Origin: a bacterium
GTDB lineage: Bacteria; JAJVIF01; JAGGVT01
Assembly (NCBI GenBank): GCA_021157815.1
Contig: JAGGVT010000043.1
Span: 1 to 36,194 of the forward strand
DNA: 36,194 nucleotides
Reading direction: 5' to 3'
Position 1 is the stretch's first letter. Each line of letters begins with the position of its first letter. The position numbers were made by a program, and so were the translations under genes. Under the pieces are notes generated by a model. The model was not told the origin of the DNA. It ran no database searches and saw only the letters and a program-made list of their open reading frames with translations. This document shows positions 2,180 through 32,578 of this stretch, one piece after another.

Positions 2180-5100
2180 ATGACGCCGTTAAGCAAGATA
2201 TTTGGAAAGACACGCGCTATCGAATCCCTTCTGTCCAAGGGAGATTCCGCTGTTCATAGTGGAAACTACAAGGTTGCGGAGGGTTTTTACGATGATGCCC
2301 TGACCAACCTTGAAAAACTCAAGCCAACTTCTGTAGTTAACCAGCAAATTATCATGTCGCTGGTCGGATTAGCTCAGGCAATCGATGGGCAGGGGCGACG
2401 CGCGGAAGTTTATCAGTATTTTGACAGAGCGCTTGAGATAAAAGGAAACCACGACCAGCTATTCGACATCCTGACAAAAATCATCAAGCCCGATCAGGAA
2501 TTGAATGAAAGCGGGCTGCGTGTTCTTAAAAAGGCGTATGAGAAAAAAAAATCCAACGAGTTTCTATTAAAGATATACGCTCAGGCGTTATGGGATAATC
2601 AGATTTTCGACCAACGTTCATTGGAGATATATGACCGCGCCCATCAGGCTGACCCGAATTTTCCAAAAGCAATCAAGGGATTGGGAAAGGCTCTCATTGA
2701 GAACGCTCGATGGGATGACCGTGCATTGAAAATTCACAGGCGCCTGCAGAAACTGGAACCGGAAAACAAGGAACATCTGAAAAACATCGCGCTTTGCTAT
2801 GCCAATCAAGATCCACCGCCTGATGAATCATACCAGGTGATGCTCAAGGCAAGGGAACTTTATCCTGACGAGGAAGCCATATTCGATGGATTAACCAAGT
2901 ATTATCTTAACAATCAGGAAATGCGCGAGGCTATCTTTGAGCATTTTAAAAAGGCTTATGAGAAAAAGCCTTCCCGTATGATAGCCGAAAAGATGCTTCC
3001 CTACCTGCTTAGAAACCATGACACAAGCGATACGGCAATTAGCGTATATGAACAGCATTTTGCAACTCACCCCAAACGTGAGCAAATTTTGTCAATCCTA
3101 TCTGAGCATTACATAAAGAATAATAAAAGCGATGATCTTGCACTGGAAATTGTTGAAACTCTTTTTAAACTTAATCCTCGCGCCCGCGACAATACTCTCT
3201 ACCTCGCCATGCTTTACGCAAAGGATGGCAAATTCGATGCCACCGCGCTACAGGTGTACGAATCGGTTGTTGATGAGGAAGAGGGTGACACACCGCCTGA
3301 AATAATCAGCGCTCTTGCGAACACATATCTAAAAGAGAATCGCAAGGATTCACACGCGCGAGAGATTTACTTCCGGGAACTCGAGCTTAAACCACACAAT
3401 ACTGAAGTACTTAAGACACTTGGCATAATCGCCCTTTCGAAGAAACATCTCGATGACAGGGATATTAGGGTCCTGACAAAATTATTCAAAGCGCCATCGA
3501 CTCAAAATGAATTTCGGATTAATGTCGCCAATTCACTTGTTCAAGTTCTTACAAAACGCCGGAACGATACAGGATTCGCCCAGGAAGTATTCGGATTCCT
3601 CTGGCAGAAAGGCTCGGAACTGCCATCAGAAGCCGTTATGGAACTTGCGCTGAAGCATGCAAAAAGCAAATCGTCAAATGCGCAGGACATCAGGCTTTTT
3701 GAATCGGCTCTGAAGAATAGATTCAATTCAACAATCGCGTGGGCACTCGCGAAACTATATATTAAAAACAGCCGGGATGATTCCACTGCAAACACTCTGT
3801 ATATGCGTGTTTTGCAGGATGATCCCACAAACAGCAGCATAATCAACTTCCTTGCGCCCAAAATCCTTGACAAAAAGGAAATCAAACCGAAGTATTTCCC
3901 AATAATTCAAGGATTAATAGAAACCAACCCCAAGCTGCTGCTGGAGAAGGTTTCACAGACTCACGGCATGACGCTCTTCATCAAAACCGGCAGGCATCAT
4001 CTGATCCATGGTGATTTCGACAAGGCGTTCAAGGTGCTGAATTTCGCAAATAAAAATTTCAAGGATCCGGTTATTGAATACCTTCTTGGAATCGCGCTTC
4101 TTGAAAAAGGTGATTTGTCCACCGCGAGCCGCGTATTCGAGCATCTTGTAAAAAGCGCGCCACAGAATCCACTATATCAATACCGCCTTGGCCATCTCGC
4201 TCTTCTTGAAAAGAAATTTGACATAGCTGAAAAGGCATTTAAAAAACTCTTTAAATCATATCCGAATCATGAATTGTTAAACGCCCGCATGGGCATGTTA
4301 TATGAAGCTCAAGGCAACTGGAAAAAAGCCGAGACACATTATAAAAAACTTCTTGAATCCAGCGGTGAATTCTCGAATTACGGTTTATTACGCCTTGCCG
4401 TGGAGAATTTCCGCCATAATCGCGATGACAGTTTCGAGGAGAAACTGAAAAAACATATCGATGAATCATATTTCGGGCAGCTTATCGCTCGAACGCTGGC
4501 AAAGAGAAGGTTTGACATTGGAGTCCGCGCTTTCAGAGAGGAGAAACTTCAGGAAGCGGTTCACCATCTTGAACGCGCCGCGAAGTATGTCGATACAGCA
4601 GAACTCAACCGGATTTACGCAGAGGCGCATTATCGTTACGGAATCCAGTTGATGAAGCGCAACGATACTGTCAACGCCGAAAAGCATTTTAAACAAGCTC
4701 AGGAAATTGATCCAAAGTCCGGTGGCCCAAGCCTTCTTCTTGGACTGATGAGCCACATTAACAACAAACCGATCAAAGCGAGAAGTTACTATCAGTACGT
4801 CATCAATAACCACAGTAACCTAAGAGACTATGCTCTTATCTACCTCGGCAAGCTGGAACTGAAAAACAAGAATTACAATCAAGCAAACGAAAATTTCAAC
4901 ATGGCACTGGAATATGAACGTGTTTATCCGGAAGCGCTTCTCGGGCGCATGATTTCGTTCTACATAAACTCCGCTGAGCTGGATACTCCCAGGATACTTG
5001 AAAACCGCGATTTCCTTGAACTGTATGAAAAGAAAATGATAAACCTTCCATTCCTGGGCGTGATTTTTTTCCGGGGCGGCAGATATGACCAAGGCATCAA

Positions 5101-6145
5101 TGTTCTGGAAAAGGGAGTAAAGAAAAACCCGGATGTTGAATCGCTTTTTTTACTGGGACTTTTAAATATTTATAACCAGAAACATAAGATAGCGTTCCAC
5201 TACTGGTCGGATATCCCTTCGCTTCTTGGCAAGAGCAAAATGATGCTGGACAAGAAACTGGAGATTCTCTACGCACTTGGATATTACTACCTTGAAGAAG
5301 AAATGATAGAGAAAGCGACTGAGGTTTTTGATGAAATCAAACGCTTCAGCCCCAAGAGCCTTGATTTGGATATAGCAAAATCGCTTACGTTGATTCATAG
5401 AGGATATCTGGAGGCAAAAGCCAGAAATGTAGATCGCGCGATTAACTCGTGGAAAACCGCTCTTAAATTCAACCAGTCATCACTGATGGCTCTTCAAAAC
5501 CTTTCGCTTGCTTACATCATCAAGACAAAGCCGCAGGAAGCCCTTGACAACTGGACTCACTATTTCGACCTTCTTGAAAGAAAGGTGCAGCGATTCCCGG
5601 ATGAAAATTCCGTTGTCGAATTGAATGAATCTCGGCGAATTCTAAATACGCTTAACATGGTCGCGGGAGATGAGAAAACTTTCTCGCTTGCGGTAAGAAA
5701 AGAAATCCTGATAGACAACATAGAGAGCGTGAACCATTATTACTGGACACTTAACCTTGAGAAAGGCGCGACCGCGGATGATGCGAAGACATCATATTTC
5801 AGGCTGATTCGAACATACACTCCGGAAAAACACGCTGAGGAATTCATGCAAATCGAGGAAGCGTACCAGTTCTTCCTTGATGACGACCGATTTAAAAAAG
5901 CGCAGCCGTTGATCTTTAACGGGTTTAACCTTCATAAAACACTCAGGCTTATTAAACTTCCTTTTAAATGGGGTGTTCCTGAATTACCGTCAATTATGGA
6001 CTCCTGCGATCGATTTATCGACCCCAGGGAATCCATTAGCAATATTAAGTTCCAGTCTTTCTATCATCAGATTTCATTCGACAAGGTTCTTCCTGATTAT
6101 CCTACTCATGAATTTGTCATAGATGATTATCTGACCGACTGGTAA
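2180..6145 (+). CDS. Giant tetratricopeptide-repeat protein with C-terminal degenerate J-like domain
   Basis: 1321-aa ORF with many TPR-like helical repeats (e.g. GMLYEAQGNWKKAETHYKKLLE); C-terminal YYWTLNLEKGATADDAKTSYFRLIRTYTPEKHAEEFMQIEEAYQFF aligns by eye to the DnaJ J domain with HPD replaced by TPE. Confidence 0.9.
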   Translation: MTPLSKIFGKTRAIESLLSKGDSAVHSGNYKVAEGFYDDALTNLEKLKPTSVVNQQIIMSLVGLAQAIDGQGRRAEVYQYFDRALEIKGNHDQLFDILTKIIKPDQELNESGLRVLKKAYEKKKSNEFLLKIYAQALWDNQIFDQRSLEIYDRAHQADPNFPKAIKGLGKALIENARWDDRALKIHRRLQKLEPENKEHLKNIALCYANQDPPPDESYQVMLKARELYPDEEAIFDGLTKYYLNNQEMREAIFEHFKKAYEKKPSRMIAEKMLPYLLRNHDTSDTAISVYEQHFATHPKREQILSILSEHYIKNNKSDDLALEIVETLFKLNPRARDNTLYLAMLYAKDGKFDATALQVYESVVDEEEGDTPPEIISALANTYLKENRKDSHAREIYFRELELKPHNTEVLKTLGIIALSKKHLDDRDIRVLTKLFKAPSTQNEFRINVANSLVQVLTKRRNDTGFAQEVFGFLWQKGSELPSEAVMELALKHAKSKSSNAQDIRLFESALKNRFNSTIAWALAKLYIKNSRDDSTANTLYMRVLQDDPTNSSIINFLAPKILDKKEIKPKYFPIIQGLIETNPKLLLEKVSQTHGMTLFIKTGRHHLIHGDFDKAFKVLNFANKNFKDPVIEYLLGIALLEKGDLSTASRVFEHLVKSAPQNPLYQYRLGHLALLEKKFDIAEKAFKKLFKSYPNHELLNARMGMLYEAQGNWKKAETHYKKLLESSGEFSNYGLLRLAVENFRHNRDDSFEEKLKKHIDESYFGQLIARTLAKRRFDIGVRAFREEKLQEAVHHLERAAKYVDTAELNRIYAEAHYRYGIQLMKRNDTVNAEKHFKQAQEIDPKSGGPSLLLGLMSHINNKPIKARSYYQYVINNHSNLRDYALIYLGKLELKNKNYNQANENFNMALEYERVYPEALLGRMISFYINSAELDTPRILENRDFLELYEKKMINLPFLGVIFFRGGRYDQGINVLEKGVKKNPDVESLFLLGLLNIYNQKHKIAFHYWSDIPSLLGKSKMMLDKKLEILYALGYYYLEEEMIEKATEVFDEIKRFSPKSLDLDIAKSLTLIHRGYLEAKARNVDRAINSWKTALKFNQSSLMALQNLSLAYIIKTKPQEALDNWTHYFDLLERKVQRFPDENSVVELNESRRILNTLNMVAGDEKTFSLAVRKEILIDNIESVNHYYWTLNLEKGATADDAKTSYFRLIRTYTPEKHAEEFMQIEEAYQFFLDDDRFKKAQPLIFNGFNLHKTLRLIKLPFKWGVPELPSIMDSCDRFIDPRESISNIKFQSFYHQISFDKVLPDYPTHEFVIDDYLTDW

Positions 6146-6174
6146 ATTTTATTCATAGACAGGCAATATATACC

Positions 6175-6843
6175 GTGAACGAATTTCTCTTCGACAATAA
6201 ACCGTTTGATATCATGCGTCCTGAAACCTCAGAAGGCACGCAAAAAGACACGGAAAAGCCGTACATCACCGACCTTCTGAAAGAGATTGGTAAAATCCGG
6301 ATTGATGTATTGCGAATGCAGAAACGCATGCAGTCGCAGACAAGACAGGGACCAGGAGGCGCGTCACTGGCATCGTCGGATTTGATAGACCCCAATTCTG
6401 GCCGTGACATGGCACAGGCTTTGAAGTTCCTTGAAATCATTCTACGTGATATTCGCGGGATTAAACCCGAAATTACCAGTCTTCACGATAAAATTAAAAA
6501 CGAAATTACTGATGATATGACCACAAGCTTATTTCAGGTGATTGACGCTTTTCAAAGAGTATTTTTATCGATGAACGAATCGGAGGATGGTCCTCAGATG
6601 TTGGGATGGTTTAAAGGAATCAGGCAGATTTACAATACCATGATGATGACTCTGCAAAAATACGGCATTGAGGAAATTGAGTGTCTTGGAAAAAAGTTTG
6701 ACCCAAAGATTCACGCTGCGGTCGGGACTGTTAAAGACTCATCAAAAGCGAATGGAACAATTGTCAGAGTGGACAGATTGGGATTCATACGAAACAGTAT
6801 CCCGATGAGATTCCCCGAAGTAATAATCGTAAGAAACAACTGA
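6175..6843 (+). CDS. grpE: GrpE-like nucleotide exchange factor (divergent)
   Basis: C-terminal GrpE beta-domain pattern LQKYGIEEIECLGKKFDPKIHAAVGTV...GTIVRVDRLGFIRNSIPMRFPEVIIVRN; GTG start. Confidence 0.8.
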   Translation: MNEFLFDNKPFDIMRPETSEGTQKDTEKPYITDLLKEIGKIRIDVLRMQKRMQSQTRQGPGGASLASSDLIDPNSGRDMAQALKFLEIILRDIRGIKPEITSLHDKIKNEITDDMTTSLFQVIDAFQRVFLSMNESEDGPQMLGWFKGIRQIYNTMMMTLQKYGIEEIECLGKKFDPKIHAAVGTVKDSSKANGTIVRVDRLGFIRNSIPMRFPEVIIVRNN

Positions 6844-6969: not shown

Positions 6970-7395
6970 GTGAGTCTAAAGATAAGGTTAAAAAGAATCG
7001 GAATGCGGAAGCAGGCATCATACAAAATTGTGGTTGCGGATGCTCGCAAACCGCGTGACGGCAAAGCTGTCGATATTTTAGGAAGCTATTCACCTCAGAG
7101 GAAAGACAAGCCTCTGACTCTTGACATTAAAAAGGTGGACAAGTGGCTGGCAGTCGGTGCGCAACCCACAGAAGCCGCGAAGAAAATCGTGGACAAGGCA
7201 AGAAAAGCGGCTGAGGAACAAGGCGTAACCAAAGTATCGTTAACCAGCGAGCCTGGGAAGCCAAAGCCCAGTAAAAAACAGATGTTGAAGCAGAAAGAAA
7301 CTGCTGAAAAGGATGAAAAAGCTCCAGCTGAAGCACAACCTGAAACTGAGAAAACCGAACCGGAAGAGTCCGAAACAAAGGAAACCGGTGAATAA
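6970..7395 (+). CDS. rpsP: 30S ribosomal protein S16 with long acidic C-terminal tail
   Basis: [42 protein letters not shown] start; synteny rpsP-khpA-rimM-trmD-rplS. Confidence 0.96.
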
Positions 7396-7525
7396 ATACA
7401 TCTGTTTTTTCCAGTTATCAACCGGATAATTCCGCTGGATGGGGTATAATAAAATAGAAAGTACTATGTGAATCATTCTCGTCTAATGAGATGGGATATG
7501 TTGGAGTCCGAGGAGATTTAGTATC

Positions 7526-7759
7526 ATGCGCGAACTGTTGTTGTCAATTGTCAAGGAACTGGTAGACCATCCGGAGGATGTGGAAGTTCAGGAAGTAGTC
7601 GGTGAAAGAACAACTGTTCTGGAACTGAAAGTACATTCTGATGACATCGGCAAGGTGATTGGTCGAAAGGGGAGAATAATTAATTCTCTCAGAATAATCA
7701 TCAAGTCTGCCGCGGTAAAAGATGGTAAGATTATCACCCTTGAACTGATTTCCCAGTAA
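7526..7759 (+). CDS. khpA: KH-domain RNA-binding protein KhpA (YlqC family)
   Basis: 77 aa; KVIGRKGRIINSLRIIIKSAA KH motif; between rpsP and rimM. Confidence 0.93.
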   Translation: MRELLLSIVKELVDHPEDVEVQEVVGERTTVLELKVHSDDIGKVIGRKGRIINSLRIIIKSAAVKDGKIITLELISQ

Positions 7760-7867
7760 TCCATTATAGCTGGCATGGATTATGGGATAACGAATCTCGT
7801 AGTAAGAAATGACAATTATGTTTCTTATTAGGATATTCGTGTTTTATTGCTTTAGATTATTTTGGGT

Positions 7868-7896
7868 GCGACCCCTCATTTAACGGTCGCTTTTTT
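7868..7896 (+). terminator. Rho-independent terminator candidate between khpA and rimM
   Basis: GCGACC-(11 nt)-GGTCGC followed by TTTTTT. Confidence 0.7.
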
Positions 7897-7955
7897 AATG
7901 ACTACCTTGTGATAGAATTTTACACAAGCAAGCAACGGTAGTGGAGGTGAGTATT

Positions 7956-8480
7956 TTGAATCCTGCTGAAGAGATTAACATCGGTTTGATTCTTGGACCT
8001 TTCGGTGTCAAGGGCGAGTTAAAAATAATGCCCCTGATTAATGATGCCAACAGGCTGTCTGAACTCAAGGATGTTTTAATCGGCAAAGAGAATCAGGATT
8101 CGGAAAGGTATGATATCACCAGAGTCCGCGTCCACAAGACACTGGTGATTATCAAACTTAAGGGAATTAGTTCACGCGAGGATTCAATGTTCCTTAAAAA
8201 CGCGTATCTTCGTATCCCGCGCGACCAGCTTAAAGAGCTTGGTGAGGATCAGTTTTATATTATGGATCTTCAGGGGATAGAAGTATCCACAACCAAAGGT
8301 ATAAAACTTGGAACGCTTGCCGAGGTAATAGAAACTCCCGCTAACGATATTTACCTGATCCAGGGGGATGACAGGAAATATCTAATACCGGCAGTCAAGG
8401 ACATAATTAAAAACGTGGACATAGACAATAAAAAAATGGAAATTGAGCCGATTGAGGGACTTCTGGACCTCGAAGGCTGA
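7956..8480 (+). CDS. rimM: 16S rRNA processing protein RimM
   Basis: INIGLILGPFGVKGELKI, DQFYIMDLQGIEV, YLIPAVKDIIKNVDIDNKKMEIEPIEGLLDL; GGAGGTGAG upstream of TTG 7956 (ORF track starts at 7941). Confidence 0.93.
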   Translation: MNPAEEINIGLILGPFGVKGELKIMPLINDANRLSELKDVLIGKENQDSERYDITRVRVHKTLVIIKLKGISSREDSMFLKNAYLRIPRDQLKELGEDQFYIMDLQGIEVSTTKGIKLGTLAEVIETPANDIYLIQGDDRKYLIPAVKDIIKNVDIDNKKMEIEPIEGLLDLEG

Positions 8481-8491
8481 TATACAGTACC

Positions 8492-9241
8492 TTGCTAATT
8501 GATGTTATAACGCTGTTTCCCGAGTATTACAAATCCCCTCTCGATGTCAGCATCCTGAAAATCGCCATCGAGACAGGATTGATCGAAATTGAACTTCACG
8601 ACTTTCGATCTTTTTCCAAAGGGAAACACAGACAGGTGGATGACTCGCCTTACGGGGGCGGGCCCGGTATGGTTCTCATGCTTCAGCCGATTGTAGATTG
8701 CCTTGAGGAATTAATCGACAGGCGGCTGAAAGAGGATTATCAGCGAACTCGACTGATACTCCTCACATGCGATGGCAAAACGTTCAATCAGGAAACGGCT
8801 TGCAAACTGAGCAATGAAGAACACATCATCCTGGTGTCCGGGCATTATGAGGGATTCGATTCACGCCTTACCCAATTGTTTCCTTTCGAGGAAATCAGCA
8901 TTGGCAATTACGTTCTCTCCGGCGGCGAGGCGGCATCGCTGGTGGTAATCGAATCTATCGCGCGTGAGATACCCGGCGTTCTGGGAAATCCCGAAAGCGC
9001 GCAGGCTGAATCGTTCAGGCATGGATTGCTCGACCATTCATCGTTCACCCGTCCACCAGACTTCAGGGGACTCAAGGTTCCCGACGTGCTGCAAGGCGGA
9101 AACCATAAATTAATAGATGAGTGGCGGCTTAAGGAATCGATAAGGAAAACGATAAAAAAAAGACCGGACTTGCTTAATTCTGATCAGCTGGATGAGAAAT
9201 CACAAAAGATTGTGGATGAGATTAAGAAAGAACTGGAATAG
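8492..9241 (+). CDS. trmD: tRNA (guanine-N1)-methyltransferase
   Basis: IDVITLFPEYYKSPLDVSI, DDSPYGGGPGMV, GHYEGFDSR, SIGNYVLSGGEAASLVVIESI, FRHGLLDHSSFTRP; TTG start. Confidence 0.96.
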   Translation: MLIDVITLFPEYYKSPLDVSILKIAIETGLIEIELHDFRSFSKGKHRQVDDSPYGGGPGMVLMLQPIVDCLEELIDRRLKEDYQRTRLILLTCDGKTFNQETACKLSNEEHIILVSGHYEGFDSRLTQLFPFEEISIGNYVLSGGEAASLVVIESIAREIPGVLGNPESAQAESFRHGLLDHSSFTRPPDFRGLKVPDVLQGGNHKLIDEWRLKESIRKTIKKRPDLLNSDQLDEKSQKIVDEIKKELE

Positions 9242-9294
9242 AATAAGATTATTTTTTTTAGAAAGATTGCATAATCTGATAGAGGTCAGAAATA

Positions 9295-9846
9295 ATGGCT
9301 GACGAAGTAGAAAAAAAAGAAACTGAACAGGCCGACGAGGTTACACAGGAAACCGCGGCTGATGAATCCAAAGTGGAAGAAGCAGCTGTAGAGGAAGCAT
9401 CTACAGAAGCAGAACCTGTAGAACCCGAGCCCGAGACCGTGGCTGAACCGAAAGCGAAGCCATCGAAGGAGACTCTCAAGAAGAAAAAGGTCGCGAAAGT
9501 TAATAAAGTCGAACTTTTCAACAAGAAATATCTCCGTGATGACATCCCTGAATTCAAAGCGGGAGACACTGTCCGTGTTCATTACAGAATCGTCGAGGGC
9601 GACAAAACCCGTATTCAGGCTTACGAGGGTGTCTGCATTGCGCGAAAGCACGGTGGTGTGAACGAAACCTTCAAGGTTCGAAAAATGAGCGGACAGATTG
9701 GAGTCGAGCGTACCTTCTTCCTCCATTCACATCGAATTGAGAAAATCGAGGTAAAGAAGATAGGCAAGGTTCGACGCGCGAAGATTTATTATCTGCGGGG
9801 AAAGGTCGGCAAGCAGGCTCGAATCCGCGAAGCTGGCATTCATTAG
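9295..9846 (+). CDS. rplS: 50S ribosomal protein L19 with acidic N-terminal extension
   Basis: [40 protein letters not shown]...[39 protein letters not shown]. Confidence 0.96.
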
Positions 9847-19586: not shown

Positions 19587-20081
19587 TTATCCTCCGTGGA
19601 TATTTGCCTGTTTATTCAGTGTTCCCTTTGCACGCGGCCCTTGAAATACATATTCCGGGAACGGCTGTGGTTTCTGAGCTTTATGTGGATGATCATCTCC
19701 GCGATAAACCTTTAGTTTCCGCATGTATCTTCGACATAGTTTATTTTGTGGAAGCATGCGTTTGACAGCCAGTTCCACAACTCGCCTTGGATCCTTTTTC
19801 ATCATCTGCTCAAATGTTGTTTCCTTCAGGCCGCCAGGATAACCTGAATGTGAGTAATACATCTTGTTGAATTCCTTCAAACCTGTCAGTTTGACTTTGG
19901 ATGCGTTAATCACGACAACAAAATCGCCGTTGTCATCATAGGGAATAAAATCCGGTTTGTGCTTGCCATTGAGTACCATTGCAATTGCGCTCGCCGCGCG
20001 TCCAAGTGTCATGTTCTCAAGGTCAAGTATATACCAGTCCCTTTTCAGATCGACTTTCTTTGGAAAGTATGTCATTCTCAT
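19587..20081 (-). CDS. rplM: 50S ribosomal protein L13
   Basis: WYILDLENMTLGRAASAIA, DFVVVINASKVKLTG, YYSHSGYPGGLKE, RMLPQNKL. Confidence 0.97.
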   Translation of the reverse strand: MRMTYFPKKVDLKRDWYILDLENMTLGRAASAIAMVLNGKHKPDFIPYDDNGDFVVVINASKVKLTGLKEFNKMYYSHSGYPGGLKETTFEQMMKKDPRRVVELAVKRMLPQNKLCRRYMRKLKVYRGDDHPHKAQKPQPFPEYVFQGPRAKGTLNKQANIHGG

Positions 20082-20087
20082 AGTTTC

Positions 20088-20846
20088 TTACCGTAAATCC
20101 CAACCGTTGTAATGAACTCTATTAAGGATAAGCCCTCTTGCCGGAGCGGCATATCCTGTACCATCAAAACGAAGATTATTAATTAAATCCTCGATATCCT
20201 CAACATTCATATCCCCTTTTGCGAGCGCGACCAAAGCGGCGATAATTCTTCGAACCATCTGATAAAGAAAACCTGATCCGGTTATTTCAATCGCGATAAC
20301 GTTTCCGGTCAGCCTTACTGAGATATCATCGATTCTGCGTATTGTCACATCATCGCGATGAGCGCTTTGCGTTGTAAAGCTTTTAAAATCATGCTCACCC
20401 AGCAGGACCCTCGCGCCGCTTTCAATTAAGGGAATATCCATCTTCTCAGTAATTCCCCAGCTGAAACGACGCCGTATAACCGAGTCATCCCTGTCAATGA
20501 TATACAAATAGGTTTTCCCGGTCGCATCATGGCGAGGGTGGAAATCAATCGATGTTTCAGCCAAATCAACGATTTTCCAATCACCCGCGCAAATGCTGTT
20601 CACGCCACGTATTATATTCTTCAAGGTACGTGATGCCGATGTTTTAAACGCAATAACCTGTCCTGTTGCATGCACACCGGCATCTGTTCTCGACGCCCCA
20701 TTTACTTTAACCTGATGCCCGAGTATTTCCCCGAGCGCTTTTGTTATCTCCCCCTGCACTGTTCTATGGTTCTCCGGTTGAATCTGGAATCCCTCAAAAT
20801 CGGTTCCATCATACTCAACCACGCCCATGATATTCCTATCGGGCAT
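20088..20846 (-). CDS. truA: tRNA pseudouridine(38-40) synthase
   Basis: VEYDGTDFEGFQIQPENHRTVQGE, GASRTDAGVHATGQVIAF, GSGFLYQMVRRI. Confidence 0.96.
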   Translation of the reverse strand: MPDRNIMGVVEYDGTDFEGFQIQPENHRTVQGEITKALGEILGHQVKVNGASRTDAGVHATGQVIAFKTSASRTLKNIIRGVNSICAGDWKIVDLAETSIDFHPRHDATGKTYLYIIDRDDSVIRRRFSWGITEKMDIPLIESGARVLLGEHDFKSFTTQSAHRDDVTIRRIDDISVRLTGNVIAIEITGSGFLYQMVRRIIAALVALAKGDMNVEDIEDLINNLRFDGTGYAAPARGLILNRVHYNGWDLR

Positions 20847-20848
20847 GA

Positions 20849-21217
20849 TTAATCAGCCCGTTCGTAATTAATTGCCACCATCGCCCTTAAAGCGCCATCC
20901 CCTCTTCTGGGCGACATTTTAACGACCTTTGTGTAACCGCCATCAGATTTCCTGGTCAGTTTGGGAACAATTTCGTGTTTCAAACGATAGACCAGCCGTC
21001 TGTCATTAAGGCACGCGTTAACAATCCTGAGGTCCTTAACTTCACCCTTTATCGCTTTGTTAATCATTGTGTCCATATACGGTGACAGCGCTTTCGCCCG
21101 CGCCTGAGTTGTAACAATCTGTCCATGCGTAATTAACTGCTTCGCAAGGTTATTCAGAAGCGCGAGGCGCTGATCTGTCGGACGATTTAGTTTTGCCAGT
21201 TTCTTTTTATGTCTCAT
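20849..21217 (-). CDS. rplQ: 50S ribosomal protein L17
   Basis: MRHKKKLAKLNRPTDQRLALLNNLAKQLITHGQIVTTQARAKAL. Confidence 0.97.
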   Translation of the reverse strand: MRHKKKLAKLNRPTDQRLALLNNLAKQLITHGQIVTTQARAKALSPYMDTMINKAIKGEVKDLRIVNACLNDRRLVYRLKHEIVPKLTRKSDGGYTKVVKMSPRRGDGALRAMVAINYERAD

Positions 21218-21249
21218 TTTTCCAACCTGTTAAATCGATGCCGGTTATT

Positions 21250-22329
21250 TTACTCCGGTCGAGGTTCAAGTTTACTCCCCTTGAGATTCAATCCCAACGG
21301 ATCCAATTTTTCCCTTATTTCGACCAGTGATTTCTCGCCGAAATTCCTTAATTTCAACAATTCCGATTCAGGATAATCGAGAAGTTCACCTATTGTTTTC
21401 ACGCCAATTGATTTCAGGCAGTTGTAAGGGCGAACCGGAAGTTCAAGGTCCTCGAGAGGCCTTGACAGCAGTTCATCCTTTTCATCCTGCTTGCCTGCCA
21501 TCGAGGTAAAATCGCCCTCTTCAAGCGGTACTGTTGAGAAGAGCGAGAAATAGGTGCAAAGAATATTCGCCGCTTCAGTCATGGCATCCTGGCATGTTAT
21601 CGCGGTATTTGTTTTAAGTTCGAGAACCAGTTTGTCCAGCTCTGTGTTCTGCCCGACACGAGTATTTTCAACCTTGTAGCTCACACGTTCAATCGGTGAG
21701 AATTTGCTGTCCAGAACGATTACTCCAAGCGGTGGTTGTTCTTCCGTCCACTCCTCGTTGAGATCACCCGGTTTGACATTCTTATTTTCGGTATAACCGA
21801 TTCCATGCATCACGCCCATCTCAACTTTTAGTTTCGCCTTTGCTGATGTGAGAGTCGCCAAATGCTGCTGCGGATTGAGAATAATAACATCGTTGTGCGG
21901 TGCAATGTCAGCAGCGGTAACCTCACCAACCCCGGATACGTCAAGGTGTAAAACCGCCTGCTTAACGCCGCTTCTAATCGCTATCTTAATAGCCTTGAAA
22001 TTAAGCAGCAGATCTATTCCATCTTCTTTTATCCCCGGAATCACGCTGTATTCATGAAGCGGTTTGGGATCATACTTAATGTAAGATATCGCCGCTCCGG
22101 CAACGGACGCAATCAGAACCCGCCTGAGAGCATTCCCCAGCGTTGTGCCATACCCCTGCGCAAGCGGAGTAATAGTGAAACGTGAATGGAAGCCTTTCTC
22201 ATCGAGACGTTCTTCCTCGATTGTCGGGCGCTCAAGGTTGAGTTCCCTTAATATATCGCTTGCGCGATAAACTCGAGGTTCTTCCATTTCACCCATTTCT
22301 TCGGTGTTATTTCCGTTATCACTTGCCAT
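21250..22329 (-). CDS. rpoA: DNA-directed RNA polymerase subunit alpha
   Basis: FTITPLAQGYGTTLGNALRRVLIASVAGAAI; alpha-CTD LELPVRPYNCLKSIGVKTIGELL...LRNFGEKSLVEIREKL. Confidence 0.98.
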   Translation of the reverse strand: MASDNGNNTEEMGEMEEPRVYRASDILRELNLERPTIEEERLDEKGFHSRFTITPLAQGYGTTLGNALRRVLIASVAGAAISYIKYDPKPLHEYSVIPGIKEDGIDLLLNFKAIKIAIRSGVKQAVLHLDVSGVGEVTAADIAPHNDVIILNPQQHLATLTSAKAKLKVEMGVMHGIGYTENKNVKPGDLNEEWTEEQPPLGVIVLDSKFSPIERVSYKVENTRVGQNTELDKLVLELKTNTAITCQDAMTEAANILCTYFSLFSTVPLEEGDFTSMAGKQDEKDELLSRPLEDLELPVRPYNCLKSIGVKTIGELLDYPESELLKLRNFGEKSLVEIREKLDPLGLNLKGSKLEPRPE

Positions 22330-22366
22330 GTTTAAAATAATCTCCTCCAGGATTGCTCCTGAAAAT

Positions 22367-22390
22367 CAGGCCGTTTATTCTCACGGCCTG
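22367..22390 (-). promoter_or_regulatory. Intercistronic hairpin between rpsD and rpoA
   Basis: CAGGCCGT-(8 nt)-ACGGCCTG perfect 8-bp stem; ATTTT follows on the transcribed strand. Confidence 0.7.
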
Positions 22391-22407
22391 ATACTTACAG
22401 ACTATTC

Positions 22408-23049
22408 CTATCTTGAATAGAACTCGACAATCAGGCTTGGCTGAATCGTATGATCCAATTCCGCAAGTTGTGGTGAGTATTTATAAGTTCCACGCAGATT
22501 CGCGTAATCAGCTTCCAGCCACGAATAACGGCATTCACCACTGGATACATTCAGAAGTTCCCTGAAACTGCCTTTCTTGCGTTTCTGCTCCTTAATCTGG
22601 ATAACATCACCATCGCGCAAAAGTATGCTGGGAATGTTCACCGGCCTTCCGTTCAGGCTGAAATGCCCGTGACAAACAAGCTGTCTCGCATGAGCTCTGG
22701 ATTTTCCATATCCAAGCCGATAAACAACATTATCCAAGCGGCTCTCAAGCAATTGAAAAAGATTATCACCGGTAACGCCTTTCTTGTGCGCCGCTTTTTT
22801 ATAATAGTTGGCAAACTGCTTTTCCGAAACGCAGTAAAACCTTCTGGCTTTCTGTTTTTCACGAAGCTGATTCTTGTAATCGCCCTGCTGTCGGCGGCGT
22901 CCAAAATGCCTCATACCCGGAGGTTCCGGCCGTCGTCCCTCTTCCATTGCGCATTTGGGTGAAAGACACCTGTCACCCTTTAGAAAGAGCTTTTCACCCT
23001 CTCTTCTGCATAATCTGCATACTGGTCCTGTATATCTAGCCAACTTCAC
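22408..23049 (-). CDS. rpsD: 30S ribosomal protein S4 (zinc-type N-terminus)
   Basis: ARYTGPVCRLCRREGEKLFLKGDRCLSPKCAMEEGRRPEPPG; S4 domain LESRLDNVVYRLGYGKSRAHARQLVCHGHFSLNG. Confidence 0.97.
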   Translation of the reverse strand: MKLARYTGPVCRLCRREGEKLFLKGDRCLSPKCAMEEGRRPEPPGMRHFGRRRQQGDYKNQLREKQKARRFYCVSEKQFANYYKKAAHKKGVTGDNLFQLLESRLDNVVYRLGYGKSRAHARQLVCHGHFSLNGRPVNIPSILLRDGDVIQIKEQKRKKGSFRELLNVSSGECRYSWLEADYANLRGTYKYSPQLAELDHTIQPSLIVEFYSR

Positions 23050-23085
23050 TTCTCCTTGTCTTTGCTTTCACAAAAGCCTTAAAAT

Positions 23086-23481
23086 TTATGTCCTTCGCCT
23101 TTTCTTCGGTCTGCAACCGTTATGAGGAATCGGCGAAATGTCTTTAATGTTCGCAATTTCCAGTCCAGCCGCCATAAGAGCTCTAATTGAGGCTTCTCGT
23201 CCACTGCCGGGTCCCTTTGTAAAAATGTCTAATTTCCTGACTCCGAAATCCTGGAGACGTTTCACAATCTGCTGCGCGCTGAGAGTGGCAGCGAAAGGAG
23301 TACTTTTCTTGGAGCCTTTGAATCCCTGGCAGCCGCCGGATGACCACGCAATCACATTGCCATCAGGATCGGAAATCGTGATTATTGTGTTATTAAAAGT
23401 CGATTGAATATGCGCCACACCATAAGGCACACTCTTCTTGACCTTTTTCTTTGCTGTTCTTTTTTTCGGTTGTTTCGCCAT
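23086..23481 (-). CDS. rpsK: 30S ribosomal protein S11
   Basis: [45 protein letters not shown] ... [17 protein letters not shown]. Confidence 0.98.
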
Positions 23482-23511
23482 AATTTCCTCTGATTATCGT
23501 TGAATAATCAT

Positions 23512-23565
23512 TTAATAAAATAACTTCCTGTTATTAAATTACTTCCCGTAATTCAATTACTTCCT
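23512..23565. repeat. Three 18-bp tandem units spanning the rpsM stop codon and the rpsM-rpsK spacer
   Basis: TTAATAAAATAACTTCCT / GTTATTAAATTACTTCCC / GTAATTCAATTACTTCCT (plus strand). Confidence 0.8.
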
Positions 23566-23964
23566 GCCCCTCTTGCCCGCGACTGTTCGCTTGGGCCCTT
23601 TACGCATTCTCGCGTTTGTTTTAGTACGCTGGCCTCGAACGGGAAGTCCCTTTCGATGTCTAAGTCCCCTGTATGTGCCAATCTCCATCAGACGCTTGAT
23701 ATTCTCCGTAACCTCGCGACGCAAATCACCCTCGATTTTGAATAAATCCACGCCGCCATCCTTTTGATTCGGGATTCCGCTTTCAAGGATTTTTCTTATC
23801 GCCGTTGTTTCCTGATCAGTTAAATCCTTGACTCGTTTGGAAAAATCGATTCCAGCGGCTTCAAGAATTTTGCGCGACCGTGTATTGCCTATACCATGGA
23901 TATAGGTCAATCCGATTACTACTCTTTTATCTCGGGGAAGATCTACTCCCGCTATTCGTGCCAC
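23557..23964 (-). CDS. rpsM: 30S ribosomal protein S13
   Basis: [34 protein letters not shown] ... [36 protein letters not shown]. Confidence 0.98.
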
Positions 23965-24010
23965 GTTTCATACCTCTGTGTCAATTGGTTTAAAGGCTAA
24001 ATTCTCCTGC

Positions 24011-24124
24011 CTATCCCTGGCGCTGTTTGTGCCTGGGATTTTCACAGATAACAATAACCCGTCCCTTTCTTTTGATTATCTTGCACTTGTTGCATATTTT
24101 TTTTACGCTTGCTCGTACTTTCAT
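24011..24124 (-). CDS. rpmJ: 50S ribosomal protein L36 (37 aa, not in the supplied ORF track)
   Basis: Translated by hand: [37 protein letters not shown]. Confidence 0.97.
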
Positions 24125-24148
24125 ATTTATCAGCTCCTGCCAATCGAA

Positions 24149-24367
24149 TCATTTCTGTCGATAAACAATTCGACCGCGAGTAAGGTCATACGGGCTCAGT
24201 TCGATTTTTACTCTGTCTCCCGGCAGTATTCGAATAAAGTGCATCCGAATTTTCCCGGAGATGTGGGCAAGGACTTTATGTCCGTTATCCAGTTCGACTC
24301 TGAACATCGCATTGGGCAGAGCTTCAATCACTTTGCCCTCGACCTCTATGGCATCTTCCTTAGTCAT
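24149..24367 (-). CDS. infA: Translation initiation factor IF-1
   Basis: [70 protein letters not shown]. Confidence 0.97.
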
Positions 24368-24383
24368 ATAATCCTGCCATCCT

Positions 24384-25040
24384 TCATGAAATGGCATTTA
24401 CAATGTTGTTAGTAATATTCTCGATGCTACCATCAGCATCGATATTTATAATCGCGCCACGCTCTGAATAATAACCGATAAGCGGCGCAGTCTCATCTTC
24501 GTATGTTTTAAAGCGATTCTGAATGGTCTCAGGTTTGTCATCAGCGCGAACGAACAACTTGCCACCACAGGCATCGCAGACACCCTCGACTTTCGGCGGG
24601 TTCGTTTTTGTGTTGTAAACCGCGGAACAACCGGAGCACATCAGGCGGCTTGTTAATCGCTCAATGATATTTCCCACCGTCACCTGCAAATTCAGAACCA
24701 TGATACCGAGCTCTCTTGATTTCAGGTAATTCTCAAGAGCCCGGGCCTGGTCAAGTGATCTTGGATATCCATCAAGGATATAGCCGTTTTGCGTATCATC
24801 CTGATTCAGCCTTTCCTCAGCCATCGCGATAACGATTTCATTCGGAACCAGTTCACCGACTTCAACAAATCGCTTTGCTTCTACACCGGCTGGTGTTTCA
24901 TTTCTAATCGCGGCGCGAATTGTTGAACCCATGTCGATATGCGGAAGGCCAAGTTTCTCAGCGATTATCTTCGCCTGAGTGCCCTTCCCGCTGCCCGGAG
25001 GCCCGAGAAAAATGTATCTGTTATCGTGATTTCCATCCAT
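24384..25040 (-). CDS. adk: Adenylate kinase (zinc-lid type)
   Basis: [47 protein letters not shown]...CDACGG lid cysteines. Confidence 0.95.
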
Positions 25041-25163
25041 TACTATACACACGCTCCATAATGAAAAGCACAAACTTTAATTTTATCATATTTATATCCC
25101 CTCGAAAAGGGATATTTTTTTCTATATTAAACAAATCTCATTCTACTTAAGCGCCGCTTAACC

Positions 25164-26450
25164 TTACTTAAGCGCACTTTCATATTTCATCATCGTTAAT
25201 CTTGCCTCAAGTTCCCTGACAGTATCAAGCGCGACACCAACGATAATCAGAATACTCGTCCCGGCGATTATATTAAGGCTGGTCAACCCGCCTATCATCT
25301 GGATTATCACTGATGGAAAAACCGCGACTGATGCAAGATAAATCGCTCCGACAAATGTCAGGCGTTCCAGAATTCTCGACAGATAATCCGCTGTCGGTTT
25401 GCCGGGACGTATTCCCGGAATATACCCGCCGTTTTTCTTCAAATTATCCGCCACCTCGGTTGGATTAAACACAACCGCGGTGTAGAAGAACGTGAACAGA
25501 ACAGTGAGGATAAAGTAGGTTACATAGTAATACCATGACCCCGTAAACGCGCTCGCCCAGTTTTGCGCTCCCTGACTAGGCATGAATCCGGCGACTGTCG
25601 CCGGGAACAGCAGTACGGAAATCGCGAAAATGATCGGGATAACTCCCGCCATGTTTACTCTAAGCGGCAGGAAATGGGTAGGTGTGGCATACCTTCCCGG
25701 CCTTGCGTATTTTATTGTTACTCGTCTTTCCGCCAGATGCATAAACACAACAAAAGCAATCATACCAACGAACAGAACCGTGAACATGACAAGCACTTTG
25801 ACAACTTCGTTGTTCTGAACGGCTGTTTGGAGGTCAGCCACGAACGATATTGGCAGTCTGGCGATAATTCCGGCAAAGATTATAAGGCTTACACCGTTGC
25901 CGATACCAAATTCAGTGATAAGTTCACCAAGCCACATAAGGAAACAAGTACCAGCCGTCAGTGTCAGGATAATGAAGATGTAGCTGAACGGAGATGGATT
26001 CAACAGGATGGAAGCTCCGCCACCAGACGGATTTGAGAATATCATCATCATACCGGTAGCCTGTATTATCGCTAATACAACTGTTAGATATTTGGTCCAC
26101 TGGCCGATTTTCTTACGCCCCGCCTCGCCCTCTTTTTGAAGTTCCTGCAGTTGTGGAAACACAATCACAAGCAGGTTAAAGATAATCGACGCGTTGATGT
26201 AGGGCATGATTCCCAGTGCGAAAATCGATACTCGTTTAAGGGAGCCGCCGCTCATCATATCCAGAATACCCAGTACTCCTCCTCCACCGCCACCGGTATC
26301 GAAAATCCTCGCCAAAGCCTCGGGATTTGTTCCCGGAACCGGAATGTGGGAACCAAGCACAAAGACACCGAACATGTAAATAATGAACATTATCCTTTTT
26401 CGAAGGTCTTCATGTCCCCATGCGTTTATGAAGGTAGTGAATATTGTCAT
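25164..26450 (-). CDS. secY: Preprotein translocase subunit SecY
   Basis: FGVFVLGSHIPVPG, LGIMPYINASIIFNLL, MWLGELITEFGIGNGVSLIIFAGI, LKKNGGYIPGIRPGKPTADYLSRIL. Confidence 0.98.
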   Translation of the reverse strand: MTIFTTFINAWGHEDLRKRIMFIIYMFGVFVLGSHIPVPGTNPEALARIFDTGGGGGGVLGILDMMSGGSLKRVSIFALGIMPYINASIIFNLLVIVFPQLQELQKEGEAGRKKIGQWTKYLTVVLAIIQATGMMMIFSNPSGGGASILLNPSPFSYIFIILTLTAGTCFLMWLGELITEFGIGNGVSLIIFAGIIARLPISFVADLQTAVQNNEVVKVLVMFTVLFVGMIAFVVFMHLAERRVTIKYARPGRYATPTHFLPLRVNMAGVIPIIFAISVLLFPATVAGFMPSQGAQNWASAFTGSWYYYVTYFILTVLFTFFYTAVVFNPTEVADNLKKNGGYIPGIRPGKPTADYLSRILERLTFVGAIYLASVAVFPSVIIQMIGGLTSLNIIAGTSILIIVGVALDTVRELEARLTMMKYESALK

Positions 26451-26902
26451 TCAGATTCTCCGATGATTTCAAGTTTTGCGTCCGCAGCTTCAATCTTTTC
26501 ACGTGCCGATTTGCTTGCCGCGTGTACTTTTATTGTCATCGAGCGTGTCAGTTCACCCTCACCAAGTAATTTAACCGGTAATTTATCGTTTCGAACCAGC
26601 CCTTCCTCAATCAGCAAACCGATAGTTATCTCGGTATCCTGTGGAAAGCGTCTCTCCAGGTCTCTCAGGTTAACAGTCGCGTATTCCTTTGGATTGAGGC
26701 TTCTGAATCCCTTAAGCATCGGAATCTTGCGGAAAGTCGGCAGATTGCCGCCCTCGAAATGACGGCTCTTGGTTCGACCTGACCGGCTTTGCTGCCCGTT
26801 CATGCCAAAACCGCAGTATCTGCCATGCGATGCCGCGCCGCGTCCGCGACGTATCTTTCGCTTTGTATTGCCTTTTATTTTAGGAAGATTTGAAAGCTTC
26901 AT
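26447..26902 (-). CDS. rplO: 50S ribosomal protein L15
   Basis: MKLSNLPKIKGNTKRKIRRGRGAASHGRYCGFGMNGQQSRSG; GGAG upstream of ATG 26902. Confidence 0.97.
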   Translation of the reverse strand: MKLSNLPKIKGNTKRKIRRGRGAASHGRYCGFGMNGQQSRSGRTKSRHFEGGNLPTFRKIPMLKGFRSLNPKEYATVNLRDLERRFPQDTEITIGLLIEEGLVRNDKLPVKLLGEGELTRSMTIKVHAASKSAREKIEAADAKLEIIGESE

Positions 26903-26923
26903 TTCATTCTCCAGCCGCACTAA

Positions 26924-27532
26924 CTAGTTGTAATTTTCAACCGTGCGTTTTCGTTTCTCCATGATTTCTTCAGGCCAGCGCATCGACTTTAACGCCTCGA
27001 AAGTCGCTCTCGCCACGTTGATATGATTTTTCGACCCGATCGATTTCGCAAGCACATTTTTCACACCGGCTGTTTCGAGTATCGCGCGCATGGGACCACC
27101 GGCGATTACGCCTGTCCCCTTGCTTGCCGGTTTCATAAATATTTTCGCCGCGCCGTATTTATATGTCATTTCATACACAAGCGTGTCATTGAGCAGCGGG
27201 ATTTCAACCATGTTCTTGTTCGCCTGGTCAACACCTTTTTTGATCGCTCCCTGGACATCATTCGCCTTGCCGTATCCAAGCCCTACCATTCCGTTGCGAT
27301 TTCCCACTGTAACAAGCGCGGTGAATCCGAATTTACGGCCGCCCTTGATAACCTTGGCAACACGATTGATGTGGATGACCTTCTCCTCTATCGGAAGAGG
27401 TTCAACCACTTCCTCTATCTCGACACCCTCTTCAGTTTCGTCAAAAGCCTCTTCCTCGGGTGTAACAACATCATCACCCCTGGTGGGCTCCTGCGGTGTC
27501 TCTTTAGTTATTTCTTTTTCCTCATCAGCCAT
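26924..27532 (-). CDS. rpsE: 30S ribosomal protein S5 with acidic N-terminal extension
   Basis: HINRVAKVIKGGRKFGFTALVTVGNRNGMVGLGYGKANDV...KPASKGTGVIAGGPMRAILE. Confidence 0.97.
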   Translation of the reverse strand: MADEEKEITKETPQEPTRGDDVVTPEEEAFDETEEGVEIEEVVEPLPIEEKVIHINRVAKVIKGGRKFGFTALVTVGNRNGMVGLGYGKANDVQGAIKKGVDQANKNMVEIPLLNDTLVYEMTYKYGAAKIFMKPASKGTGVIAGGPMRAILETAGVKNVLAKSIGSKNHINVARATFEALKSMRWPEEIMEKRKRTVENYN

Positions 27533-27543
27533 TCAGCGCACCT

Positions 27544-27909
27544 CTAGAATTTCAAACCCGATTTACGGGCTTTTTCTGCGAATTGTTTAATATTGCCCAG
27601 ATAACCAAATCCACCATGATCAAACACAACCTGCTTGATTTTCTTTTCTTTTGCTTTGGCGGCAATCAGTTCACCGACTTTTCCCGCCGCTTCGGAATCA
27701 CCGGTTTTCTCAAGCGATGATTTCAACTCAGGGGACAGCGTCGATGCAGATGCCAGCGTATGTGCCAGGTCATCATCGATTATCTGCGCGTAAAAATGTT
27801 TCGCACTCTTGAAAACGACAAGTCGAGGCCTGTCCTGCGTACCGGACACCTTCTTGCGAAGACGGGCGTGCCTTTTCAGTCTCAATTTGCGTTTCTTTTT
27901 TGTTTCCAT
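27544..27909 (-). CDS. rplR: 50S ribosomal protein L18
   Basis: [31 protein letters not shown] ... [30 protein letters not shown]. Confidence 0.97.
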
Positions 27910-27933
27910 TTATCTAACCTCAGCTTTAACTTC

Positions 27934-28473
27934 CTAAACAGTCTTTCCACTCTTTCTTCGAACTCGTTCACCTTTATAACGAAATCCCTTGCCTTTATAC
28001 GGCTCCGGCGGCCTAAGCTTTCGAACATCCGCGCAGTATTGGCCGACTTTTTGCTTGTCAACTCCCATTACGCTTATGATGTTATTCGTTTTGTCCACTT
28101 CAGCCGTTATTCCCTCGGGAAATTCCATGAATATCGGATGCGAAAATCCAAGCGCGAAATCAAGCCCGCTTTTCTTCAAATCAACCTTGTAACCAACACC
28201 GTAAAGTTCAAGCACCTTTACAAATCCCTCTGAGACACCGGTTACGGCATTCGCGAGCAGGCTTCTAATAAGCCCGTGCCGCGCTGTGTAAAGTTTTACG
28301 CCCGGGTGGCTGTTTATTACAAGAATCTGATTATCTTTTTCATCGATCTCAATACCATCAAGAATCTCGACCTGAAGAGCGCCTTTGGGGCCCTTGACGT
28401 CAACAATGTTACCCTTATGAGTAAAGGTAACGCCTGATGGCAATGGTATCGGTTTCTTTCCTATACGAGACAA
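27934..28473 (-). CDS. rplF: 50S ribosomal protein L6
   Basis: (M)SRIGKKPIPLPSGV ... KLRPPEPYKGKGFRYKGERVRRKSGKTV; GGAGGT 7 nt before TTG 28473 supports a shorter start than the ORF track. Confidence 0.96.
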   Translation of the reverse strand: MSRIGKKPIPLPSGVTFTHKGNIVDVKGPKGALQVEILDGIEIDEKDNQILVINSHPGVKLYTARHGLIRSLLANAVTGVSEGFVKVLELYGVGYKVDLKKSGLDFALGFSHPIFMEFPEGITAEVDKTNNIISVMGVDKQKVGQYCADVRKLRPPEPYKGKGFRYKGERVRRKSGKTV

Positions 28474-28493
28474 GGTTACAACCTCCGAAATTA

Positions 28494-28892
28494 TCAATAC
28501 ACCGTAAACAGCAGTTCGCCGCCAACGCCTTTTTCTCTTGCTTTCTGGCCGCTCATGATTCCAGCGGATGTTGACAGAATGGCAACACCGTTCCCACTGC
28601 GAACCAGTGGAACTTCATCACGAGTTACATAATGTCGGCATCCGGGTTTTGATTCCCTTTTGATGCACTCGATGATTGGTGTTTTTTCATCGATATATTT
28701 AAGATAAACACGAATGCACTTTTTGCCGTTCATAAGACGTCTGTCGAAACCATATATGTATCCCTCCTGCCGAAGGACACTGGCAATCGCCCACTTGTAC
28801 TTTGAATGTGGAACATCGCATGTTTTCTTGAGCGCCTTTTGGGCGTTTCTAATTCGAGTTATCATATCCGCTATCGGATCTGTCATTACCAT
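28494..28892 (-). CDS. rpsH: 30S ribosomal protein S8
   Basis: MTDPIADMITRIRNAQKA ... VRSGNGVAILSTSAGIMSGQKAREKGVGGELLFTVY; TAGGAG before ATG 28892. Confidence 0.97.
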   Translation of the reverse strand: MVMTDPIADMITRIRNAQKALKKTCDVPHSKYKWAIASVLRQEGYIYGFDRRLMNGKKCIRVYLKYIDEKTPIIECIKRESKPGCRHYVTRDEVPLVRSGNGVAILSTSAGIMSGQKAREKGVGGELLFTVY

Positions 28893-28903
28893 TTTATGAG
28901 CTC

Positions 28904-29089
28904 CTACCAGCTTGCCTTTTTCACGCCGGGGATGACTCCCTGATGAGCAAGTAATCTGAAACAGATTCGGCACATGCCGAATTTCCTCAGGTATCCACGA
29001 GGACGGCCACAGATCTTACATCTGTTGCGATGCCGAATTTTAAACTTCTTTGGCTTTAAATTCTTGATATATAGCGCTTTTCTAGTCAT
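28904..29089 (-). CDS. rpsZ: 30S ribosomal protein S14, zinc-binding type Z
   Basis: 61 aa with [40 protein letters not shown]. Confidence 0.97.
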
Positions 29090-29117
29090 TGATTATCCTT
29101 ACCTTATACTCTCGTAT

Positions 29118-29717
29118 TTATTTCTCCCGAATAGGACACCCAAGTTGTTTAAGCAAGACTGTCGCTTCTGCATCATTATCAGCCGATGTAACTATCGAAA
29201 TATCAAAACCCCGCACCTTGGATATCTCATCATAACTGATCTCGGGAAATACTATCTGCTCACGAATTCCCATCGTGTAATTGCCATGGCCGTCAAAGCT
29301 GTTCGGGCTTAATCCCTGGAAGTCTCTTACGCGCGGAAGCGCGACAGTGAAAAGCTTCTCCAGGAAGTGATACATCATCTCGCCGCGAATGGTGACCATC
29401 AGCCCGACAGGCATTCCGGCTCGTATCTTGAACTGTGCGACTGACTTCCTTGCCCTTGTGATAACCGGCTTCTGTCCGGAAATGACCATAAAATCATTTA
29501 TCGCCGCTTCGATGAGCTTGAAATCACGAGAACCTTCGCCGACCCCCATGTTCATTACAACTTTTTCAAGCCGGGGAACCTGGTGCGGATTTTTCCAGCC
29601 AAATTCCTTCATCATGTCCGGGATGATCTTGTCGCGATAATGCTTTCGCAATCGCGATTCCATCTTGGGTATCTTCCCGTCCGACTGAACTGCTTTTTCT
29701 TTCTTTTTCTTCGCCAT
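29118..29717 (-). CDS. rplE: 50S ribosomal protein L5
   Basis: [72 protein letters not shown]. Confidence 0.97.
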
Positions 29718-29765
29718 CTTTGTTTCCGTATTATTCTCAGGCTTTAAACCTGGTCATATCAATAA

Positions 29766-30101
29766 TTAAACCTGATCAATATACTCCTTGCATAATTTGC
29801 AACGCCTTACAAGTTTCCCCTTCACTTCCTCACGTGAGAACTTTGTTGCTTTGTTGCATCTCGGACAAACAAGCCTGACATTTGAAATATCAATCGGCAA
29901 CGGTGTTTTGATGATACCTGTTTCACCGCGTTGTCCGCTCGTCTGCTTTTTGTGCTGCGTGGCTACCATTATGCCTTCAACAGTCACTTTGCCTTTCACA
30001 CGATTGATATTCAGAACACGACCCTGTTTGCCCTTATCCTTGCCTGTCAGGACAAAAACCGTGTCATTTTCCTTTATGTGTATTTTCATGATGCTTTTCA
30101 T
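29766..30101 (-). CDS. rplX: 50S ribosomal protein L24
   Basis: MKIHIKENDTVFVLTGKDKGKQGRVLNINRVKGKVTVEGIMVATQHKKQ; the start may be internal (MKIHIKEND). Confidence 0.95.
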   Translation of the reverse strand: MKSIMKIHIKENDTVFVLTGKDKGKQGRVLNINRVKGKVTVEGIMVATQHKKQTSGQRGETGIIKTPLPIDISNVRLVCPRCNKATKFSREEVKGKLVRRCKLCKEYIDQV

Positions 30102-30135
30102 CAGTTTAAACCTTCCGTCATGGCCCTTTTGAGTA

Positions 30136-30513
30136 TTAAAGCACTTCAGGCGCTAGTGATACGATTTTCATAAACTTTTTAAACCGCAGTTCCCTGCCCA
30201 CCGGACCGAAAACACGAGTTCCAATCGGATTCTTATCCTTTGGGTCCTGTGCGATTATTACTGCCGCGTTGTCATCGAATCTGATACGGCTGCCATCCGA
30301 CCGACCGAGTTCCTTTTTAGTTCGGACAATAACCGCTTTGACTTTCTCACCTTTTTTGACAGCACCGTTCGGTATCGCTTTCTTCACAGTTGCAACGACA
30401 ATATCGCCGATATGTCCATAGCGTCGCTTTGAGCCGCCAAGCACTCGTATTACCAGTATCTCTTTGGCGCCGGAATTATCCGCTACTTTTAAACGTGATT
30501 CCTGCTGAATCAT
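30136..30513 (-). CDS. rplN: 50S ribosomal protein L14
   Basis: [44 protein letters not shown]. Confidence 0.98.
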
Positions 30514-30531
30514 TTGCCTGTATCCTTTGCG

Positions 30532-30585
30532 ACTGATTTATATCAGTTAACTGATTTTAACCAGTAAACTGGCTTCGGTCAGTTA
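30532..30585. repeat. Three 18-bp tandem palindromic units ending exactly at the rpsQ stop codon
   Basis: ACTGATTTATATCAGTTA / ACTGATTTTAACCAGTAA / ACTGGCTTCGGTCAGTTA (plus strand). Confidence 0.85.
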
Positions 30586-30864
30586 CTTCGCTTTCTCAAT
30601 AATTTCCTTCACACGCCATCGCTTCGTTTTGGAAAGCGGACGTGTGGCAATGATACTTATAAAATCCCCCCGGGTTGCAATCTCCTTCTCGTCATGCGCA
30701 TGATATTTCTTCGCCATCTTCACGACTTTCTGATAAAGAGGATGGCGTTTCTTTCGTTCGATTTTCACCACGACTGTTTTATCCATCTTCGTGGAAATGA
30801 CAGTGCCTTTGAGCACTCTTTGTCTTCCCTGTATCTTAACTGTCTCTTCTGCGTTTTTCGCCAT
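30583..30864 (-). CDS. rpsQ: 30S ribosomal protein S17
   Basis: RQRVLKGTVISTKMDKTVVVKIERKKRHPLYQKVVKMAKKYHAHDEKE. Confidence 0.97.
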   Translation of the reverse strand: MAKNAEETVKIQGRQRVLKGTVISTKMDKTVVVKIERKKRHPLYQKVVKMAKKYHAHDEKEIATRGDFISIIATRPLSKTKRWRVKEIIEKAK

Positions 30865-30897
30865 TTTCCTTTATCCTTTTCCCATCGAGGGAATATT

Positions 30898-31098: not shown

Positions 31099-31125
31099 TT
31101 CAACTAACCTCGATAATTCTGATAA

Positions 31126-31539: not shown

Positions 31540-31574
31540 TATTCAGCTCCGCATTTCTCCAATGTGTTGTTCAA

Positions 31575-32554: not shown

Positions 32555-32578
32555 TTAACCTTACCTTCCAGATGCTGG

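Follow-up and report, generated by a model that had tools for sequence, protein, structure and literature searches.

Which Hsp70, if any, is served by a GrpE protein whose gene directly follows that of a giant TPR protein? This question is raised by a locus in a 36,194-nucleotide stretch of bacterial DNA (the window), which is one entire contig, so genes past its ends lie outside view. The initial annotation proposed a dedicated co-chaperone module working with an Hsp70 encoded elsewhere, and the comparisons below support this proposal. We estimate a probability of about 75% that the two proteins, here called TPR-J and GrpE2, act as J-protein and nucleotide exchange factor, respectively, in a dedicated Hsp70 machine that is partly insulated and is built around DnaK2, an Hsp70 encoded on another contig (C43) of the same genome. 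The features of the locus are given below.

2180..6145, + strand: TPR-J, TPR superhelix protein with a C-terminal J-like domain (ORF; Pfam TPRs and DnaJ; AlphaFold2; Foldseek; orthologues)
5738..5890, + strand: J-like domain, TPR-J aa 1187–1237 (Pfam DnaJ; J-fold recovered by structure)
5819..5827, + strand: TPE replacing HPD, TPR-J aa 1214–1216 (alignments; xPE in all orthologues)
6122..6142, + strand: C-terminal tail DDYLTDW of TPR-J (alignment; the orthologue tails PDYLASW, VDFLATW and IPDWTIL are similar)
6175..6843, + strand: GrpE2, divergent nucleotide exchange factor with a GTG start (Pfam GrpE, 1.3e-23; PDB GrpE structures 4ani and 1dkg; second of the genome's two GrpE genes)
6184..6204, + strand: FLFDNKP, N-terminal motif of GrpE2 (regex across module and ordinary GrpEs)
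6448..6831, + strand: GrpE core domain, GrpE2 aa 92–219 (Pfam; GrpE search of the genome)

Both ORFs were confirmed as first described: TPR-J has 1321 aa and GrpE2 has 222 aa, and the 29 bp between them revealed neither a strong promoter nor a strong terminator. Many TPR repeats were recognized in TPR-J by Pfam, and AlphaFold2 modelled aa 122–1321 as a helical superhelix of ∼60 helices (mean pLDDT 80), to which the closest PDB structures found by Foldseek are the large TPR proteins Ctr9, TTC21B and Ski3. Orthologues of TPR-J occur at six loci (L070, L071, L072, L047, L115 and L116), and the conserved tail is a possible docking motif. The Pfam DnaJ score of the J-like domain is 28.4 bits, just over the cut-off of 27.8. 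This region was modelled with a pLDDT of 81–90, and its Foldseek matches in the PDB were J-domains with a probability of ∼1.00 and a best fit of 1.7–2.1 Å, with no E-value <0.001. The claim that TPR-J ends in a J-like domain therefore stands; the replacement of HPD described below was not part of it. GrpE2 was likewise correctly read as a divergent member of the GrpE family. An FLFDNKP-type motif was matched in 11 of the 16 module GrpEs and in none of the 31 ordinary GrpEs, using a regex that was drawn up after the sequences had been inspected.

The genes that usually accompany grpE in the heat-shock operon are absent from the window, as had been noted. Whole-genome searches for Hsp70, J-domain and HrcA sequences returned just one match within the window, TPR-J, and all others lay on other contigs; HrcA is encoded on contig C211, and no CIRCE element was found upstream in the window. 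The contig also carries translation genes, namely rpsP-rimM-trmD-rplS directly downstream of the pair (6970–9846) and, on the opposite strand at 19600–35800, the genes for L3, L2, secY, S4, rpoA and truA. The source genome is a 3.2 Mb MAG that is 91% complete. GrpE2 is not its sole GrpE, because an ordinary GrpE adjoins the ordinary DnaK (DnaK1) on contig C187. A second full-length Hsp70, the 584-aa DnaK2, is encoded at C43:18772-20487 beside an rlmN-like gene, and two further J-domain genes were found, both with HPD.

We compared this arrangement with those of other genomes. TPR-J, GrpE2 and DnaK2 are all present in 3/3 class relatives: in G001 and G003, GrpE2 is followed directly by DnaK2 and TPR-J lies elsewhere, and in G002 the three genes are dispersed, whereas in the source genome TPR-J and GrpE2 stand together and DnaK2 apart. 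The expected conservation of the TPR-J–GrpE2 adjacency thus failed in all three class relatives but held in other lineages, where the same pair stands directly before DnaK2. A contiguous operon of a J-like protein, GrpE and DnaK2 was found in 13 genomes beyond the class. In G019, G305 and G166, TPR-J (1322–1331 aa), GrpE, DnaK2 and a zinc-ribbon protein lie in one row, and a smaller J-like protein takes the first place in ten genomes (G015, G302, G163, G268, G131, G146, G283, G139, G037 and G204). G305, the one close relative located by a scan of named genomes with DnaK2 alone, is the MAG Zod_Metabat.1143 (contig JAFGCY010000036.1, exact sequence match). Additionally, GrpE and DnaK2 are paired in G085, which encodes its TPE J-like protein at another site, and G107 encodes DnaK2 and xPE J-like proteins at unlinked loci. 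Chance adjacency of TPR-J and GrpE2 was rejected because the linkage recurs across these other lineages.

In the sample of 385 genomes, 17 genomes from 12 families, and G204 in addition, had a J-like domain with xPE (once PNE) as the top match; ordinary DnaJ also scores with the short J profile in almost every genome, and these counts are of top matches checked for the motif. Nine loci (new or repeated) were examined with a clean J-domain profile. A module DnaK was present in 18 genomes, each of which also has a separate ordinary DnaK, and most module operons have no second J-protein.

Several further observations were made at these loci. The zinc-ribbon protein, which follows DnaK2 in several operons (L115 5812-6423, L122 12360-14012 and L124 13698-15302), may be a fourth component of the module. 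In G268 (L120) and G131 (L122), only a few genes separate the operon from ffh and trmD, and in L122 also from rpsP and rplS (genes identified by eye), an arrangement that resembles the position of the window pair beside rpsP; this shared neighbourhood may reflect chance or one shared event. At L164 and L165 (G015 and G163), ORFs of 1159 and 1207 aa begin with DnaK sequence and continue into a part that, by eye, resembles a Ser/Thr protein kinase, and G302 has a comparable 1207-aa ORF. Finally, the GrpE domain lies within larger proteins in G002 (L045 9318-11006, 562 aa, with a long C-terminal extension) and G037 (L048 6101-7813, 570 aa, with ∼450 aa preceding the domain).

In a DnaK tree without HscA and HscC, a branch with 100/99 support split the 18 module DnaKs from 21 others, which include divergent non-module paralogues. 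When E. coli HscA and HscC were added, the module DnaKs no longer formed one side of a branch, and HscC joined the DnaK of G107 at 78/84. We dropped a single origin of all module DnaKs because of this join, although it is weak and involves long branches. In the GrpE tree, the module proteins fell into the same two groups and were separate from the ordinary GrpEs, with the long-branched G037 as the exception.

To our knowledge, HPD is held to be the sole indispensable motif of J-domain proteins. It is missing from every module J-like protein: TPR-J has TPE at this position, and the relatives have NPE, DPE, SPE, PPE or, once, PNE. Across the family, including the HPE-bearing DjlB and DjlC of E. 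coli, the acid of the motif never varies and the P hardly ever does. TPR-J thus combines a J-fold with a non-conservatively replaced HPD, as type IV or pseudo-JDPs are defined.

In E. coli, DnaJ residues R22, K26, R27, K48 and K51 face DnaK residues E206, D211, E217 and D477, and within the HPD motif H33 contacts the linker residue L391, P34 packs against P419, and both R167 and Q378 are bound by D35 (PMC8215388; PMC13012618). When these contacts were transferred by homology onto our alignments, on which the following counts rest, both sides of the J-site differed in the module. The TPR-J group has K/Q/E22, F26, R27, M48 and E51, so that K26, K48 and K51 of E. coli DnaJ are replaced by F, M and E, and its DnaK2 has Q/K/R206, K217, D477 and the linker [LI]V[VI]VD. 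A second group, of seven short-J pairs, has DnaK2 with Q217, K/R477, D170 and H393. R167, Q378 and P419, the contacts of the P and the acid of the motif, are retained in all module DnaKs. Among the 18 module DnaKs, 15 have a non-acidic residue 217; none of the 26 others does, a set that includes divergent non-module paralogues, HscA and HscC (Fisher 3.5e-9, a p-value that ignores shared descent); because the changes are shared by descent, they represent few independent events. The summed contact charges shift together across subtypes: −1 to +1 (J) and 0 to +1 (DnaK2) in TPR-J pairs, +3/+4 and −3/−2 in three other module pairs, and +4/+5 and −3 in ordinary pairs. These paired changes argue for an interaction of TPR-J with an Hsp70. 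The GrpE-binding loop (276–302) is present in module DnaKs and is shortened in E. coli HscA.

The pair is assigned to a dedicated machine on the basis of its linkage with DnaK2, the separate lineages of GrpE2 and DnaK2, and the paired interface changes. In the cycle that we propose, the TPR superhelix would gather client or partner proteins and the J-like domain would dock on DnaK2 at the usual J-site. The xPE acid would pair with R167 of DnaK2, leading to ATP hydrolysis and client capture, and GrpE2 would then exchange ADP for ATP and so release the client. With the charges altered on either face of the J-site, DnaK2 would be kept apart from ordinary DnaJ, and TPR-J from ordinary DnaK.

Triggering by xPE faces the objection that even conservative replacements within HPD (H to Q or D to N) abolished stimulation in all the systems tested (PMC8215388), and xPE could be inactive as well. 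The principal rival to active triggering is that the J-like domain is a true pseudo-J of the Pam16 kind: it would bind DnaK2 or another J-protein solely to position or restrain its partner, and the ATPase of DnaK2 would be driven by an ordinary J-protein with HPD. An HPD-less J partner has a precedent in Pam16 (PMC13254874), no module member has HPD, and the source genome has two ordinary J proteins that might take this part. Moreover, an ordinary HPD DnaJ is encoded inside the same operon in G019 and G305; it could serve DnaK2, which counts against the pairing of DnaK2 with TPR-J. However, a dead motif would not need the near-uniformity of xPE seen even in DjlB and DjlC; DnaK2 retains R167, Q378 and P419, the charges are altered on both sides, and most operons lack a second J-protein. 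We consider this rival unlikely, and active triggering of DnaK2 by xPE is favoured because the acid is invariant, the P nearly so, and R167 is kept. That GrpE2 and TPR-J are accessory factors of DnaK1, their distribution reflecting gene duplication and no separate machine, is very improbable: both GrpE proteins of Myxococcus xanthus do bind MxDnaK1 (PMC11019930) and GrpE2 is unlinked to DnaK2 in the source genome, but linkage and tree congruence point to DnaK2, DnaK1 has its own adjoining GrpE, and the acidic residues that DnaK1 retains at the J-site are no longer matched by TPR-J.

Among known systems, the nearest kind is E. coli HscC with DjlB and DjlC, similarly a second Hsp70 with its own J-proteins, whose motif also ends in PE and is followed by the same short loop. 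Their HPE has been called the only tolerated variant of HPD (2026 review, PMC13254874), whereas the window has TPE and the histidine is absent from the module J-like proteins. HscC also differs in retaining E206 and E217 and in having no GrpE-binding loop; it is thought to be GrpE-independent, whereas the module keeps the loop, and the dedicated GrpE linked in most module genomes speaks against an HscC-like, GrpE-free mode of working. Unlike DjlB and DjlC, the J-domain in the window sits on a giant TPR protein. In M. xanthus, a dedicated GrpE adjoins a second DnaK, which has clients of its own (MXAN_6672-MXAN_6671, GrpE-MxDnaK2; PMC11019930); by arrangement and description this resembles the adjoining GrpE2 and DnaK2 of G001 and G003, but no J-like partner is reported there. 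The order hrcA-dnaJ-[TPR-J]-grpE2-dnaK2 in G019 and G305 recalls the hrcA-dnaJ-grpE-dnaK heat-shock operon, although their GrpE and DnaK are of the module types and the ordinary DnaK lies elsewhere, and the window pair stands outside any such operon. Pam16/Tim16 and type IV J-domain proteins share a recognizable J-fold without HPD, but in the module xPE is uniform and is accompanied by its own Hsp70 and GrpE, with the J-site of the Hsp70 changed alongside.

No description of the module was found in the literature searched, which did not extend to Barriot et al. (2020, J Mol Biol), reportedly a survey of bacterial J-proteins. Judged from the sequences compared here, the module appears to be a second Hsp70 machine, separate from the ordinary one, in scattered bacteria. 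More tentatively, and at somewhat less than even odds, it may work in bacteria as an Hsp70/J/GrpE machine that is insulated from DnaK/DnaJ and can dispense with the HPD histidine, xPE triggering its own Hsp70 through an electrostatically rewired J-site. If so, HscC-DjlB/DjlC would belong to the same lineage as a reduced branch without GrpE. A uniform xPE family with its own Hsp70, GrpE and matching J-site changes would show how Hsp70 machines become insulated, and the module offers naturally occurring pairs in which the J-domain residues truly required for triggering ATP hydrolysis could be identified.
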